A stretch of 64,000 bases of DNA, taken from the NCBI RefSeq assembly GCF_000827125.1, contig NZ_CP010311.1, forward strand, positions 124,001 through 188,000. The letters run 5' to 3'. Below the pieces are notes generated by a model. It was not told the DNA's origin, searched no databases, and saw only the letters and a list, made by a program, of their open reading frames with translations. The DNA is from Geoalkalibacter subterraneus (GTDB taxonomy: Bacteria > Desulfobacterota > Desulfuromonadia > Desulfuromonadales > Geoalkalibacteraceae). Both the position numbers and the translations under genes were made by a program. Positions 55,950 to 60,721 of this stretch are shown here, in pieces; within the stretch, counting starts at the first letter, position 1, and every line of letters begins with the position of its first letter.

Positions 55950-56026
55950 GCGCCGGTAGCTCAGCTGGATAGAGCGTCTGACTACGGATCAGAAGGTCGG
56001 GAGTTCGAATCTTCCCCGGCGCGCCA
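55950..56026 (+). tRNA. tRNA-Arg (anticodon ACG)
   Basis: Acceptor GCGCCGG pairs with CCGGCGC, discriminator G and CCA encoded. The anticodon loop around CTACGGA gives ACG, which is read as inosine after editing. Its last 46 nt form the left attachment copy of the integrated element that follows. Confidence 0.96.
55981..56026 (+). other. attL: left attachment repeat within tRNA-Arg
   Basis: 46 bp from the anticodon loop to the CCA end, identical to 60676-60721. Because this copy is joined to the 5' half, the tRNA stays functional. Confidence 0.9.
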
Positions 56027-56034
56027 AAGAAATC

Positions 56035-56067
56035 AAGGGCTTAGCCTTCACCGGCTGAGCCTTTTTT
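56035..56067 (+). terminator. Terminator after tRNA-Arg, supplied by the element
   Basis: Stem GGCTTAGCC (56038-56046) with GGCTGAGCC (56053-56061), one G-T pair, a 6-nt loop and six T residues. It sits inside the element, replacing the displaced chromosomal terminator now found near 60740-61450. Confidence 0.85.
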
Positions 56068-56084
56068 CGTTTGATTTGAAAATT

Positions 56085-56106
56085 TGTCCCCACTCTGTCC
56101 CCATTT
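56085..56106. promoter_or_regulatory. Candidate integrase arm-type site, left
   Basis: The 22-bp TGTCCCCACTCTGTCCCCATTT, itself two TGTCCCCA units 11 bp apart (each unit shown within the site), recurs exactly at 60526-60547. It lies 59 bp inside attL. Paired direct repeats near both ends are typical of tyrosine integrase arm sites. Confidence 0.65.
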
Positions 56107-56268
56107 GTTTCATTTCGCCTGATCTTGTCCGGTCGCCGGGGGGGGATGGCAGATCGACCGGCACCACCCCACCCCCACCCCATTCGCAAAACCGAGGCGA
56201 CCTTACGCATCGACTCCTTGTAGATACTATCCTTCCCCGCAACACGCATCAGATCAAAAAAACATCAT

Positions 56269-56277
56269 TTATCCACA
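56269..56277. other. Consensus DnaA box
   Basis: TTATCCACA is a perfect match to the bacterial DnaA-binding 9-mer, in the gene-free 818 bp next to the iterons. The rest of 56107-56680 has no convincing gene; an 82-codon minus-strand frame at 56397-56645 lacks a ribosome site and family character. Confidence 0.6.
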
Positions 56278-56681
56278 GAAACCGGCGGCTTTTATCTCGT
56301 CGTATTTCTCTCGAAGAAAATCACGCTCAAGAATTGTCAGAAGTATTGACCCTAGCCTACCCATGCCACAAACGGAGAAAATTTCTCAAACGGCAGCTAG
56401 GTACGCATTGACGGCATAGAATGACCGATTCTCTGCTTTGGTTGTGGAATGATCGTAAGGTTGACAAGCCTGACGGAAATATGACCGAAAAGGTTATCTA
56501 TTGATGGTGTCAACGAAGTATATTCAGGGACATATGGTTGAGGATGTGGGTTGCCTGTCGGTGGGAGTTGGTAGGGGTGGTGATATTGCGTAGAAGGCTT
56601 ACCACGAAGGTAATAAAAAAGAGATGTTTTTCTTCGATGCGACATGCTCAGAGTTTCAGAGCTTGTCTCTAGGCTCTGAGC

Positions 56682-56719
56682 CCTAGTTATATATACCTAG
56701 TTATATACCTAGTTAAAAA
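56682..56719. repeat. Three AT-rich 12-mers (candidate DNA unwinding element)
   Basis: CCTAGTTATATA at 56682-56693 and 56696-56707, and CCTAGTTAAAAA at 56708-56719. Tandem AT-rich 12- or 13-mers next to iterons are the usual melting region of iteron plasmid origins. A hairpin CAGAGC/GCTCTG lies just left (56656-56679). Confidence 0.7.
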
Positions 56720-56732
56720 CCTTCTTAGGGGT

Positions 56733-56840
56733 GGAAATATGTGCAGGTCAAAAGGAAATATGTGCAAGTCCGGTGGAAATATGTGCAGGTCAAAAGGAAA
56801 TATGTGCAGTGCCATTTTTTAATGGGTGGAAATATGTGCA
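56733..56840. repeat. Iteron array: five copies of a 13-mer
   Basis: GGAAATATGTGCA occurs at 56733, 56754, 56775, 56796 and 56828. The first four are exactly 21 bp apart, two helical turns, so a protein would bind one DNA face. The fifth is 32 bp on. The array abuts the stop of the Rep-like gene. The spacer type alternates (GGTCAAAA, AGTCCGGT, GGTCAAAA). Confidence 0.85.
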
Positions 56841-56844
56841 GATA

Positions 56845-58581: not shown

Positions 58582-58603
58582 GCGCCAAAATTGAATTAAA
58601 AGT

Positions 58604-58633
58604 AAAAACCCCGCTACCAGATTGGTAACGGGG
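58604..58633 (-). terminator. Terminator between the element's two gene groups
   Basis: CCCCGCTACC (58609-58618) and GGTAACGGGG (58624-58633) pair with one mismatch, followed on the minus strand by TTTTTAC and TTTT. It separates the lipoprotein/50-aa genes from the Hth_17-Rep operon. Confidence 0.75.
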
Positions 58634-58665
58634 TCGGTGTTCGACGATCATGTCAGCCTGTCATG

Positions 58666-58818
58666 TCAGCGTGTCAACTCCTGCGCCCGGTATAGCAGAC
58701 GAATTGCATGGCAGATGTCGCAGGAACCAACGTTCTTCTTTTCGTCATGTTTGCATTCGCAGCGGGATTCGAGAATGTCACGGGCTTCTTCGATGTAGGT
58801 TTTCGCTGTCACTGTCAT
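58666..58818 (-). CDS. 50-residue protein with four Cys, unknown
   Basis: The protein begins MTVTAKTYIEEARDILESRC and contains CECKHDEKKN, then SCDICHAIRLLYRAQELTR. Two CxC/CxxC pairs could bind zinc. GGAGGAACGACA precedes the ATG, which overlaps the stop of the lipoprotein gene (ATGA). No family is recognised. Confidence 0.6.
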   Translation of the reverse strand: MTVTAKTYIEEARDILESRCECKHDEKKNVGSCDICHAIRLLYRAQELTR

Positions 58819-59261
58819 TGTCGTTCCTCCTTGTCTGTGTCAGGTTCGAGGTACTTAATCAGAATGGCTTTCTTGCTGCCTATACCGGTGCTTACCGTTT
58901 CTTGTCCGCCGGTCGCATGATCGTAAGTTTCTCTCGAATGAGTCTTGATTTGATTTGGACCTGCGAATATAACAGCATCTGCCCCGAGTTCTTTGGCTTT
59001 ATCGACGATTGCAGAGTTTGACCACCAGTCCCCTAGTAGCATGACTGTGAGACCGTCGCTGATAACCGTATTTTCTGCTACACCCAAAACTTCGAACCGT
59101 CCTTGAGGTTCGCCCACTGTCCAAATGTCAATGCCGTCCTTGGTGGTGCAGGCCCCGCCCTTGCCGACAAACTCTCTCTGCCCCTGCCACGGCTGAAAGT
59201 CTGTGCTTGACAGGCAGCCTGTCAGAATCAGCGTTGTCAGGATCAAAAGCGTCAATCTCAT
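58815..59261 (-). CDS. Small lipoprotein carried by the element
   Basis: The 148-residue protein has a clear lipobox (MRLTLLILTTLILTGC, Cys16). The mature part has VGKGGACTTKDG, a GVAENTVISDGLTVM segment and AKELGADAVIFAGP, the last like the YbjQ/DUF4156-type beta-alpha domain of small surface lipoproteins. A strong AGGAGGGAAGG ribosome site precedes it. As the only obvious cargo, it may alter the host surface, for example in exclusion of related elements or phages (inference). Confidence 0.75.
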   Translation of the reverse strand: MRLTLLILTTLILTGCLSSTDFQPWQGQREFVGKGGACTTKDGIDIWTVGEPQGRFEVLGVAENTVISDGLTVMLLGDWWSNSAIVDKAKELGADAVIFAGPNQIKTHSRETYDHATGGQETVSTGIGSKKAILIKYLEPDTDKEERQ

Positions 59262-59292
59262 GTCCTTCCCTCCTTTCCTTGTGCTGTTGCTG

Positions 59293-60501
59293 TCATGCCC
59301 TCTTGGATGTTAGCGGGATCACGTCGGCGCTGTCCTTCTTACCGGTCGCGTGTTTAATCAGGTGCTTGGCCCAAACTGTCAACGCTTTCTTCTTCTCGTC
59401 GTCGTAGCGGTGGCGGATGTAGTGTTCGGCTGTCACTCCTTGGAGTTTATGGCCCAATGTCGCGGCGATAACCTCCATGCTGAATCCGAGTTTTGCAAGG
59501 CCGCTGCCGACAGTCCGGCGCAAGTCATGGACAGAGAACGGATCAAGGCCAAAGTAATCATTCCGCTTGAGCCAACGCCCAACGGATGAAGGTTCAAACG
59601 GTCGCCCGGTTCTGATGCTGGCAAAGGGCGGGTCGGTGTCAGGGTCGATCTGTGCGGCGGCTTCTTCTGTCAGGTAGACACGATGTGCGCGCTTACCCTT
59701 GAATCTTGCTGCGGGAACCTCCCACCACTCGCCGTCAATTTCGCAGAATTGAAGGTGGGAGGCTTCGGACAGACGGCAGCCTGTCAGGAGGATAAACCTG
59801 ACAAGCCGGATCATTGCCGGATCGCCTTCGGCTGTTTCCAAAGCGGCCAAGAGTTTGGCAGCTTCATCAATCGACAGGGTACGTTCTCGCGGTGCTGGCT
59901 TCTCCGGGCGGGGTACGTCGCGCACGATGTTGGTTTCGACGTATTCACGCGGTGACTGGATGGCCCAGGCATACAGGGATGACAGCGAGGATCGCACCTG
60001 AATGGCGACAGATTGCGATTCGGTGCCGATCTCCTCGATCAAGGCGGCGAGGTTGCGGCGGTGAATCTCTGACAGCTTCCACTCTCCGAGTTTGCCGGTG
60101 CCTTTGCCGGGTTGGAATACCTCAGCTTTGGCAAGGCCGTCGCGGTAATACCTGACAGTCTTGGCGCGTCTGGTGCGTTCACAGTGAATCATGAACTTCT
60201 CGACGGCCTCAGAGAAGGTCGGCATGGCCTCGTCTTCCATCGCCTTCTGTTTCCGGCGGTCTTTTAGCGATGCTGCCCCTCTGCCCGTCTTGGCGGCCTC
60301 TTTCAACTCGCTCAAGGTGTCGTAAGCCTTCTTTTCCGTCCATCCCTCAGACCACCAGCCTAGCCCCTCCTCGATTCTCTTGCCGCCGACCTGATACCGG
60401 ATGGCGAAATAACGATCAAACTTGGTGCCATGCTTCCGGGTCGAATGATTGCGCCATCTCACGCCGGGGTACTTGTTCGTCTTCTCCCACTTCGCTGCCA
60501 T
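59293..60501 (-). CDS. int: Tyrosine integrase of the tRNA-Arg element
   Basis: The 402-residue tyrosine recombinase has an N-terminal arm-binding/DUF4102-like part, a core-binding SAM-like domain (about 100-190) and a catalytic domain. Catalytic residues: Arg in LTGCRLSEASHL, HDLRRT (His-x-x-Arg), LGHKLQ (His) and the nucleophile Tyr in AEHYIRHRY. It reads inward from attR and should recombine the 46-bp tRNA repeats. ATG 60501 follows AGGGGGG; a GTG at 60534 is an alternative. The start overlaps neither arm site. Confidence 0.93.
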   Translation of the reverse strand: MAAKWEKTNKYPGVRWRNHSTRKHGTKFDRYFAIRYQVGGKRIEEGLGWWSEGWTEKKAYDTLSELKEAAKTGRGAASLKDRRKQKAMEDEAMPTFSEAVEKFMIHCERTRRAKTVRYYRDGLAKAEVFQPGKGTGKLGEWKLSEIHRRNLAALIEEIGTESQSVAIQVRSSLSSLYAWAIQSPREYVETNIVRDVPRPEKPAPRERTLSIDEAAKLLAALETAEGDPAMIRLVRFILLTGCRLSEASHLQFCEIDGEWWEVPAARFKGKRAHRVYLTEEAAAQIDPDTDPPFASIRTGRPFEPSSVGRWLKRNDYFGLDPFSVHDLRRTVGSGLAKLGFSMEVIAATLGHKLQGVTAEHYIRHRYDDEKKKALTVWAKHLIKHATGKKDSADVIPLTSKRA

Positions 60502-60525
60502 CTCTTGCCCCCCTTCATCGTTGCC

Positions 60526-60547
60526 TGTCCCCACTCTGTCCCCATTT
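60526..60547. promoter_or_regulatory. Candidate integrase arm-type site, right
   Basis: Exact second copy of the 22-bp repeat at 56085-56106, same orientation. It lies just upstream of int and 128 bp inside attR, so integrase bound here could also repress its own gene. Confidence 0.65.
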
Positions 60548-60675
60548 TTTGCAGGAATGTACGGGATAGCTCAATGTGGTTGTGGGATAAATGTTATTGC
60601 TAAGTTGCTGTTATGTCAAATGAAAATATCTGAGAACATTGGTGTTCACTGGTGAGGATTGAGGATGGGTATATA

Positions 60676-60721
60676 ACTACGGATCAGAAGGTCGGGAGTT
60701 CGAATCTTCCCCGGCGCGCCA
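60676..60721 (+). other. attR: right attachment repeat (tRNA-Arg 3' part)
   Basis: 46 bp identical to 55981-56026. There is no 5' half, so it is not a functional tRNA gene. Confidence 0.9.

Follow-up and report, generated by a model that had tools for sequence, protein, structure and literature searches.

A 4.7-kb tRNA-Arg element of Geoalkalibacter subterraneus with a predicted plasmid-type initiator and iterons: a candidate minimal satellite

A 64-kb stretch of Geoalkalibacter subterraneus DNA (64,000 nucleotides; hereafter, the window), corresponding to positions 124001-188000 of contig C1 in a 3,717,645-base genome of two contigs, was found to hold a 4.7-kb element inserted at a tRNA-Arg gene. 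We interpret this element, with a probability of about 0.58, as a complete minimal satellite with the layout of a phage-inducible chromosomal island (PICI), which would excise, replicate by means of its own initiator and iterons, and spread with a helper phage. The excision and replication steps taken together are very probable, and they are common to the satellite interpretation and to that of an integrative plasmid. A preliminary description of this DNA had proposed an integrative element that carries replication functions of its own, and the analysis supports that proposal. The boundaries of the element, its open integrase gene, its arm-type repeats, the relatedness and predicted fold of the initiator Rep, the iterons, and the capsid-bearing relatives were computed; excision, replication, and packaging are steps that we infer.

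Integration and replication functions

The element is bounded by two 46-bp att copies on the plus strand (55981-56026 and 60676-60721), which are 100% identical over 46 nt and lie 4,695 bp apart from start to start, the size of the unit. The first copy forms the 3' part of the integration target, a tRNA-Arg (ACG) gene detected with ARAGORN (55950-56026, plus strand). The tyrosine integrase gene, int (59293-60534, minus strand, 413 amino acids [aa]), is a full-length single open frame whose product matched PF00589 (3.4e-12, above the cut-off) and phrog_1 (4e-54). The exact repeats and intact integrase reported previously are therefore confirmed. Inside the att copies lie two 28-bp arm-type repeats that are 93% identical, namely TGTCCCCACTCTGTCCCCATTT at 56085-56112, 58 bp inside att copy 1, and a second one at 60526-60553, inside att copy 2, whose 20-mer ends 130 bp from att; none of 300 shuffles gave an equal pair. 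Each repeat is composed of two TGTCCCCA units 11 bp apart, and four of the six occurrences of TGTCCCCA in the window (both strands) fall within these repeats. Paired repeats of this kind resemble the arm-type Int sites of attP in lambda-type integrases. Because they are found inside both ends, attP looks intact, and the design argues for the completeness of both element ends. Two of the relatives described below, L021 and L027, have a like paired-repeat design with other sequences (38 and 52 bp on one side, 118 and 143 bp on the other), and such repeats were non-significant in L031 (134/300 shuffles) and L022 (13/300).

All seven assigned open reading frames (ORFs) are on the minus strand, pointing to one-way transcription, in the order int, putative lipoprotein, 50-aa ORF, HTH_17-like gene, Cys-rich 50-aa gene, single-stranded-DNA-binding (SSB)-like gene, and rep, with the iterons past the rep stop. 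The element reads as two gene groups, one for integration and cargo and the other for regulation and replication. Between the 50-aa ORF and the HTH_17-like gene, a terminator-like hairpin of 13 pairs (58607-58635, minus strand) separates the int group from the rep group; it has the most pairs of the seven such hairpins found in the region, against 5.7 expected. A promoter scan yielded three candidates against 3.6 expected. The element is single copy, and a DNA search of the rest of the host genome, second contig included, detected no sequence in common with it at the sensitivity of the search.

The replication initiator gene, rep (56845-57567, minus strand, 240 aa), encodes a protein that matched HTH_36 (5.6e-10) and, among other Pfam families, only generic winged-helix domains (Crp-like, MarR). 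Its PHROGs matches were phage replication-initiator families (phrogs 270, 391, 8540, and 1032), accompanied by one 'primosomal protein' family (phrog 11896, 2.3e-5). The predicted model shows two winged-helix regions, with a mean predicted local distance difference test score (pLDDT) of 68 and residues 135-186 below 50. When this model was compared with the PDB by VIA-align 2, the top 34 rows were iteron-type replication initiators, with a best Z of 8.4 over 172 residues (root-mean-square deviation 4.5 A), a value near 8 that may reflect a common arrangement. Almost all of them belong to a single protein, RepE54; for several, whose titles name the co-crystal only, this assignment follows series and residue range. 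The initiators independent of RepE54 are pi with iteron DNA (Z 7.8) and RctB (Z 6.4). The first unrelated row appeared at Z 5.7. The coverage of both domains and the drop in Z after the initiators favor a real likeness, and the predicted fold comes nearest to RepE (plasmid F) and pi (R6K). Of the viral models, HTH-domain proteins and replication protein O matched best.

Just 3' of rep lies an iteron array (56733-56841, minus strand) of five GAAATATGTGCA copies with spacings of 21, 21, 21, and 32, which TRF described as a 21-bp unit in 3.7 copies (score 119, 56733-56809). The only five copies of GAAATATGTGCA in the window all fall within 56734-56840, and a count of five in the iteron region was reached by 0/60 shuffles and 0/88 control stretches. 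Together with the two winged-helix regions of the model, this bears out the double winged-helix gene and iteron array of the preliminary description. The adjacent AT-rich stretch (56670-56729; 35% GC, among the lowest 0.7% of 60-bp windows), which contains CCTAGTTATATA-type repeats, is a candidate melting region. Beyond it there is one 9-bp GGAAATATG copy only, at 56475, whereas in a Gram-negative PICI two iteron sets flank the AT-rich stretch. A single consensus DnaA box, TTATCCACA, is present at 56269-56277 (plus strand). The earlier suggestion that host DnaA is used would depend on this box and is weak; the three occurrences of TTATNCACA in the window (0.75 expected) were equaled or exceeded in 5/100 shuffles.

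If Rep were instead a transcriptional regulator, the repeats would be operator sites and not an origin. The generic character of its winged-helix Pfam matches (HTH_36, Crp-like, MarR) would agree with this, as would the Foldseek PDB list, where a Crp regulator comes first (E 0.014) and RepE occupies ranks 2 and 4. However, the replication-initiator phrogs, the initiator folds atop the VIA-align 2 list, and the repeats found 3' of rep in several relatives make this explanation highly improbable. The preliminary description had itself raised the prospect of Rep being an unrelated regulator; the predicted fold appears closer to plasmid initiators than to other regulators.

Directly upstream of rep, a 124-aa protein of the OB-fold, single-stranded-DNA-binding type is encoded at 57571-57945 (minus strand). 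It matched NCBIfam NF046043 ('phage replication initiation protein, NGO0469 family') at 4.9e-9 and 36 bits, below the curated cut-off of 75, and no Pfam family; a phrog head-protein match at E 0.3 was taken as chance. Its predicted model, built from two sequences, is of OB type (pLDDT 86) and nearest to PrgE of plasmid pCF10 (Foldseek 9.4e-6; Z 9.8 over 117 residues in a second look), in line with the SSB-like gene noted before. A homologue was found in the related locus L005 (E 1e-12), and the profile had no match in the others of the 12 loci examined below.

These parts suggest the following cycle. Int would recombine the two 46-bp cores, the HTH_17-like protein probably acting as excision factor and the arm-type repeats serving as Int arm sites, and a 4,695-bp circle would be released. 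Rep would then bind the iterons, melt the adjacent AT-rich stretch, and load the host replisome for replication in theta mode, while the OB-fold protein would coat the single-stranded DNA. Finally, a helper phage would package the circle and carry it to a new cell, where it would integrate at tRNA-Arg.

Relatives of Rep and the means of spread

Relatives of Rep are rare. With the host genome itself counted, they occurred in 3/98 near genomes (E<=0.001), in 10/395 genomes across the phylum (E<=1e-5), and in 3/136 genomes of the order and 4/277 of the class (E<=1e-8), these samples overlapping. A set of 12 loci was studied, comprising the window, L004, L005, L020-L027, and the viral contig L031, in which 57 of the 66 Rep pairs were linked by blastp at 0.001. 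Eight of the other nine genomes matched in the phylum-wide search were used; L019 was left out because a RecT-like neighbour, recognised by eye, suggests that it belongs to the replication region of a prophage, and L066, a distant Rep relative, lies outside the set. The Rep of L024 is truncated where its contig ends, and L020 begins 362 bp from the end of its contig. A search of genome contigs revealed no loci beyond L004 and L005. Elements with a homologous Rep thus exist in other genomes, a point on which the preliminary description had made its interpretation depend.

A recombinase gene lies within about 4 kb of rep in all 12 loci and carries PF00589 in 11; that of L023 matched N-terminal integrase domains only, below the cut-off. 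HTH_17 or AlpA was detected at E<=0.001 in eight loci (L004, L005, L020, L021, L022, L025, L027, and L031, with L004 and L005 below the Pfam cut-off), in a scan covering all loci but L024 and L026; the HTH neighbour protein of L023 had no HTH_17 match. Repeats of att type bound five of the nine loci searched (window, 4,695 bp; L027, 5,372; L022, 6,681; L031, 9,512; L021, 9,669) and were not found for L004, L005, L023, and L025, the nine being all loci but L020, L024, and L026. In the 360 bp at the 3' end of rep, repeats exceeded shuffles (0-2/60) in 7/12 loci: five copies in the window, four in L021, and seven each in L025 and L031 (0/60 each), four in L022 and three in L024 (1/60 each), and four in L023 (2/60), the L024 count being reached also by 3/21 control stretches. 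These repeats start within about 15 bp of the rep stop, save in L022 (98 bp beyond it). A separate search of L027 gave three 24-nt copies (7388-7477) that overlap the 3' end of rep. The complete order Rep-SSB-Cys-rich-Hth_17-lipoprotein-int, suggested earlier as a signature to look for, was present in 0/11 relatives studied, but parts of it recur. In L025, a small integrase-bearing locus, an ERCC4-type nuclease gene (6451-6933; PF02732, 8.5e-14) stands beside rep and its seven repeats of about 22-bp spacing.

Two of the relatives bear capsid genes. L031 sits at a tRNA-Gly between 49-bp repeats that are 98% identical, and encodes an integrase, AlpA (3.9e-10), Rep with seven 12-bp repeats, HNH (5.2e-7), a large terminase (6.3e-34), and the head proteins HK97 capsid (2e-29), prohead protease (2e-41), and portal (3.7e-94); the scan of ten of its ORFs revealed no tail gene. 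The combination AlpA-HNH-terminase-capsid-protease-portal is the gene set of capsid-forming PICIs, and at 9.5 kb L031 resembles a capsid-forming satellite. L021 likewise holds an HK97 capsid gene (1e-45). Among 11 integrases compared, that of the window is closest to that of L031 (32.6% over 279 aa, 3e-39). In 39 ORFs from seven other relatives (L024 and L026 outside the set) no capsid or terminase Pfam family was found, and the first 25 of their 39 PHROGs families included no head gene by description, some being without description. One further marker, phrog_2, tried for terminase, was rejected as unspecific because it was present in 11/14 control genomes. With regard to the earlier suggestion of a satellite, the capsid-bearing relatives L031 and L021 speak for it, but no helper was identified.

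Database searches returned few further occurrences. Searches by tblastn with the window Rep, and with the L031 Rep too, found nothing in 72,556 plasmid records or in phage records. In viral contigs, alignment A1 led to L031, the L031 Rep and alignment A3 found L031 itself only, and the window Rep alone and the integrase gave no match. In the open-access literature, none of the titles among the matches listed dealt with an element of this sort from this group.

The same excision and iteron replication would also be expected of an integrative plasmid that spreads without a phage, through conjugative mobilisation (oriT in trans) or natural transformation; the relatives with capsid genes would then have borrowed a plasmid replicon. 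The plasmid-type fold predicted for Rep, the OB protein resembling PrgE of pCF10, which is a conjugative plasmid, the distant relative L066 beside a ParM-like actin, the lack of a phage structural gene in the element, and the second contig of about 242 kb, which we take to be a plasmid, all speak for such a history. Against this, no relaxase match was obtained for the element proteins in the Pfam scan (oriT was not searched as such), no DNA is shared with other parts of the genome, second contig included, at the sensitivity of the search, and Rep is missing from the 72,556 plasmid records. We hold this explanation, the chief alternative to a satellite, to be unlikely, while giving it appreciable weight.

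Some observations count against the satellite interpretation. The Rep model is of moderate quality (pLDDT 68, 4 sequences), and Foldseek alone found no match for it in the PDB at 0.001. No clear repeats were present in the 360 bp tested for L005 (4/60 shuffles), L026 (10), L004 and L027 (50), and L020 (53). The distant relative L066 (6127-8218) adjoins HTH_17 and the ParM-like actin gene (PF17989, 1.4e-19), which points to plasmids. The HTH_17 assignment in the window is weak, the protein at 58221-58496 having no Pfam or phrog match at E<=1, and searches of Pfam, PHROGs, and NCBIfam recognised no gene for packaging, terminase, interference, or primase in the element. Furthermore, the host genome lacks a PF05065 (HK97-type) capsid gene, other capsid types not having been searched, the element DNA had no match in 50,697 phage records, and the attP junction was absent from viral contigs.

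Beyond the single element, we tentatively propose, at somewhat under even odds, a satellite lineage of Desulfobacterota and their relatives that has an iteron replicon of plasmid type as its basis, in which a chassis of int, HTH_17/AlpA, Rep, and 3' iterons occurs either bare (~5 kb; window and L027) or with head genes (9.5-9.7 kb; L021 and L031). If true, plasmid-type initiators would be linked to phage satellites by elements that share one chassis, some having capsid genes and others lacking them, and a separate satellite lineage would show passage between integrative plasmid and phage satellite. At 4.7 kb, the window element would lie near the lower size limit of satellites and offer a minimal set of genes for a hitch-hiker that integrates and replicates, with no primase recognised and no structural genes.

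Other genes and the tRNA-Arg site

The 91-aa HTH_17-like protein (58221-58496, minus strand) is a weakly supported candidate excisionase or regulator. The Hth_17 label of the preliminary description found no echo in Pfam or PHROGs, but a profile built from the HTH_17-type proteins of four relatives placed the window protein sixth among 1449 ORFs (E 0.0054), the seeds taking ranks 1-4. The neighbouring Cys-rich protein (57996-58148, minus strand, 50 aa) is a candidate zinc-binding protein. Its motif, TPxxAIRxxCxxC...CxxxxCxxxPxRxG, occurs in 3/12 loci (the window, L004 at 4451-4645, and L027 at 8251-8793), and a DNA pattern for it had 0 matches in L022. The window protein has no Pfam match, and the three together gave only one chance-level NCBIfam match (L004, E 0.062). 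In the int group, a 50-aa Cys-containing ORF (58666-58818, minus strand) is followed by a 148-aa putative lipoprotein, recognised by eye and regarded as cargo (58815-59261, minus strand), which had no match in Pfam, PHROGs, or PADLOC and an NCBIfam lipoprotein match only at E 0.077. As to anti-phage cargo, five window proteins had no PADLOC match at 0.01. In agreement with the preliminary description, scans of the seven element ORFs with Pfam, PHROGs, and NCBIfam recognised neither a transfer gene nor a capsid gene.

A third att copy, with one mismatch, is located at C1:230106-230151, 45 kb downstream. Between copies 2 and 3 extends a 45-kb island (C1:184722-230151) that starts at window position 60722 and runs past the window end, so that element and island form a tandem array at one tRNA-Arg. 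Eight of the nine island proteins scanned matched PADLOC models (ZacA, ZacB, ZacC, DrmD, type III methyltransferase, restriction enzyme, IetA, and GajB), many of these matches being shared helicase or ATPase domains. Since this defence-rich island is flanked by near-identical att copies, the same integrase could bear on its movement. The third copy also implies that a larger unit could move, and the lipoprotein has no known function; both would suit a decayed or immobile remnant, either a fossil beside the island or one carried by it in cis. Nevertheless, the open core genes, the identity of att copies 1 and 2, and the arm repeats at both ends speak against a remnant, which we consider improbable.

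The orthologous lipoprotein-tRNA-Arg locus was found in 4/5 other genomes of the family; the element was absent from all four (roughly 4 kb read each), which had no Rep match elsewhere at 0.001. In two of these loci (L058 and L060), restriction-modification-like genes were seen by eye downstream of the orthologous tRNA-Arg, making the site a possible hotspot for defence islands. Just outside att copy 2, a Y1 transposase of IS200 type (PF01797, 2.3e-41) is encoded at 60787-61326 (plus strand), and by eye the copy 2 flank resembles the copy 3 flank, as if split by its insertion. A second recombinase (61894-62841, minus strand; Integrase_1, PF12835, 7.6e-11) near the left end of the island is perhaps the island's own integrase.

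Comparison with known systems

Like RepE of F and pi of R6K, the window system combines two predicted winged helices, iterons, and an AT-rich region, with a match in predicted fold. It differs from them in that identity in the structural alignments is about 9-18%, the window Rep is chromosomal, and its sequence-family matches are phage initiators. With respect to capsid-forming PICIs, L031 has the structural set along with the Rep family of the window and a related integrase, whereas none of the structural genes was recognised in the window element.

The earlier view that replication functions are unusual in an element under 5 kb is weak, since replication genes are also found in PICIs and in a 6.1-kb phage-inducible chromosomal minimalist island (PICMI) (PMC6092414, PMC10803314). 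For Gram-negative PICIs, transcription in one direction and an origin located 3' of rep have been described, and the window element resembles them in its specific att integration, in the position of int at one end, in the common direction of its genes, and in a candidate origin, with one set of iterons and an AT-rich stretch, just 3' of the replication gene (PMC6092414). On the other hand, it has no recognised primase domain, terS, or interference gene, measures 4.7 kb against about 15 kb for Gram-positive PICIs, and belongs to another phylum than the hosts stressed in that account, Enterobacteriaceae and Pasteurellaceae (PMC6092414). A capsid homologue is described there for the PICI PmCI172 (PMC6092414). 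PICMIs, with a 6.1-kb prototype and a mean of 6.7 kb for 67 Vibrionaceae elements, are likewise minimal, with int, an HTH_17/AlpA-type gene (weak in the window), a replication gene, and no capsid genes (PMC10803314). Neither of their AlpA families (PF05930, PF12728) matched the HTH_17-like protein at E<=1 in Pfam, and its match to the profile built from relatives (E 0.0054) is weak. The window element differs in having Rep and iterons with no primase (DUF3987/DUF5906) recognised, in lying at tRNA-Arg and not at fis, and in having no known helper (PMC10803314). It is thus neither a PICMI, with no primase recognised and a site other than fis, nor a capsid-forming PICI, and it is a PICI in layout only.

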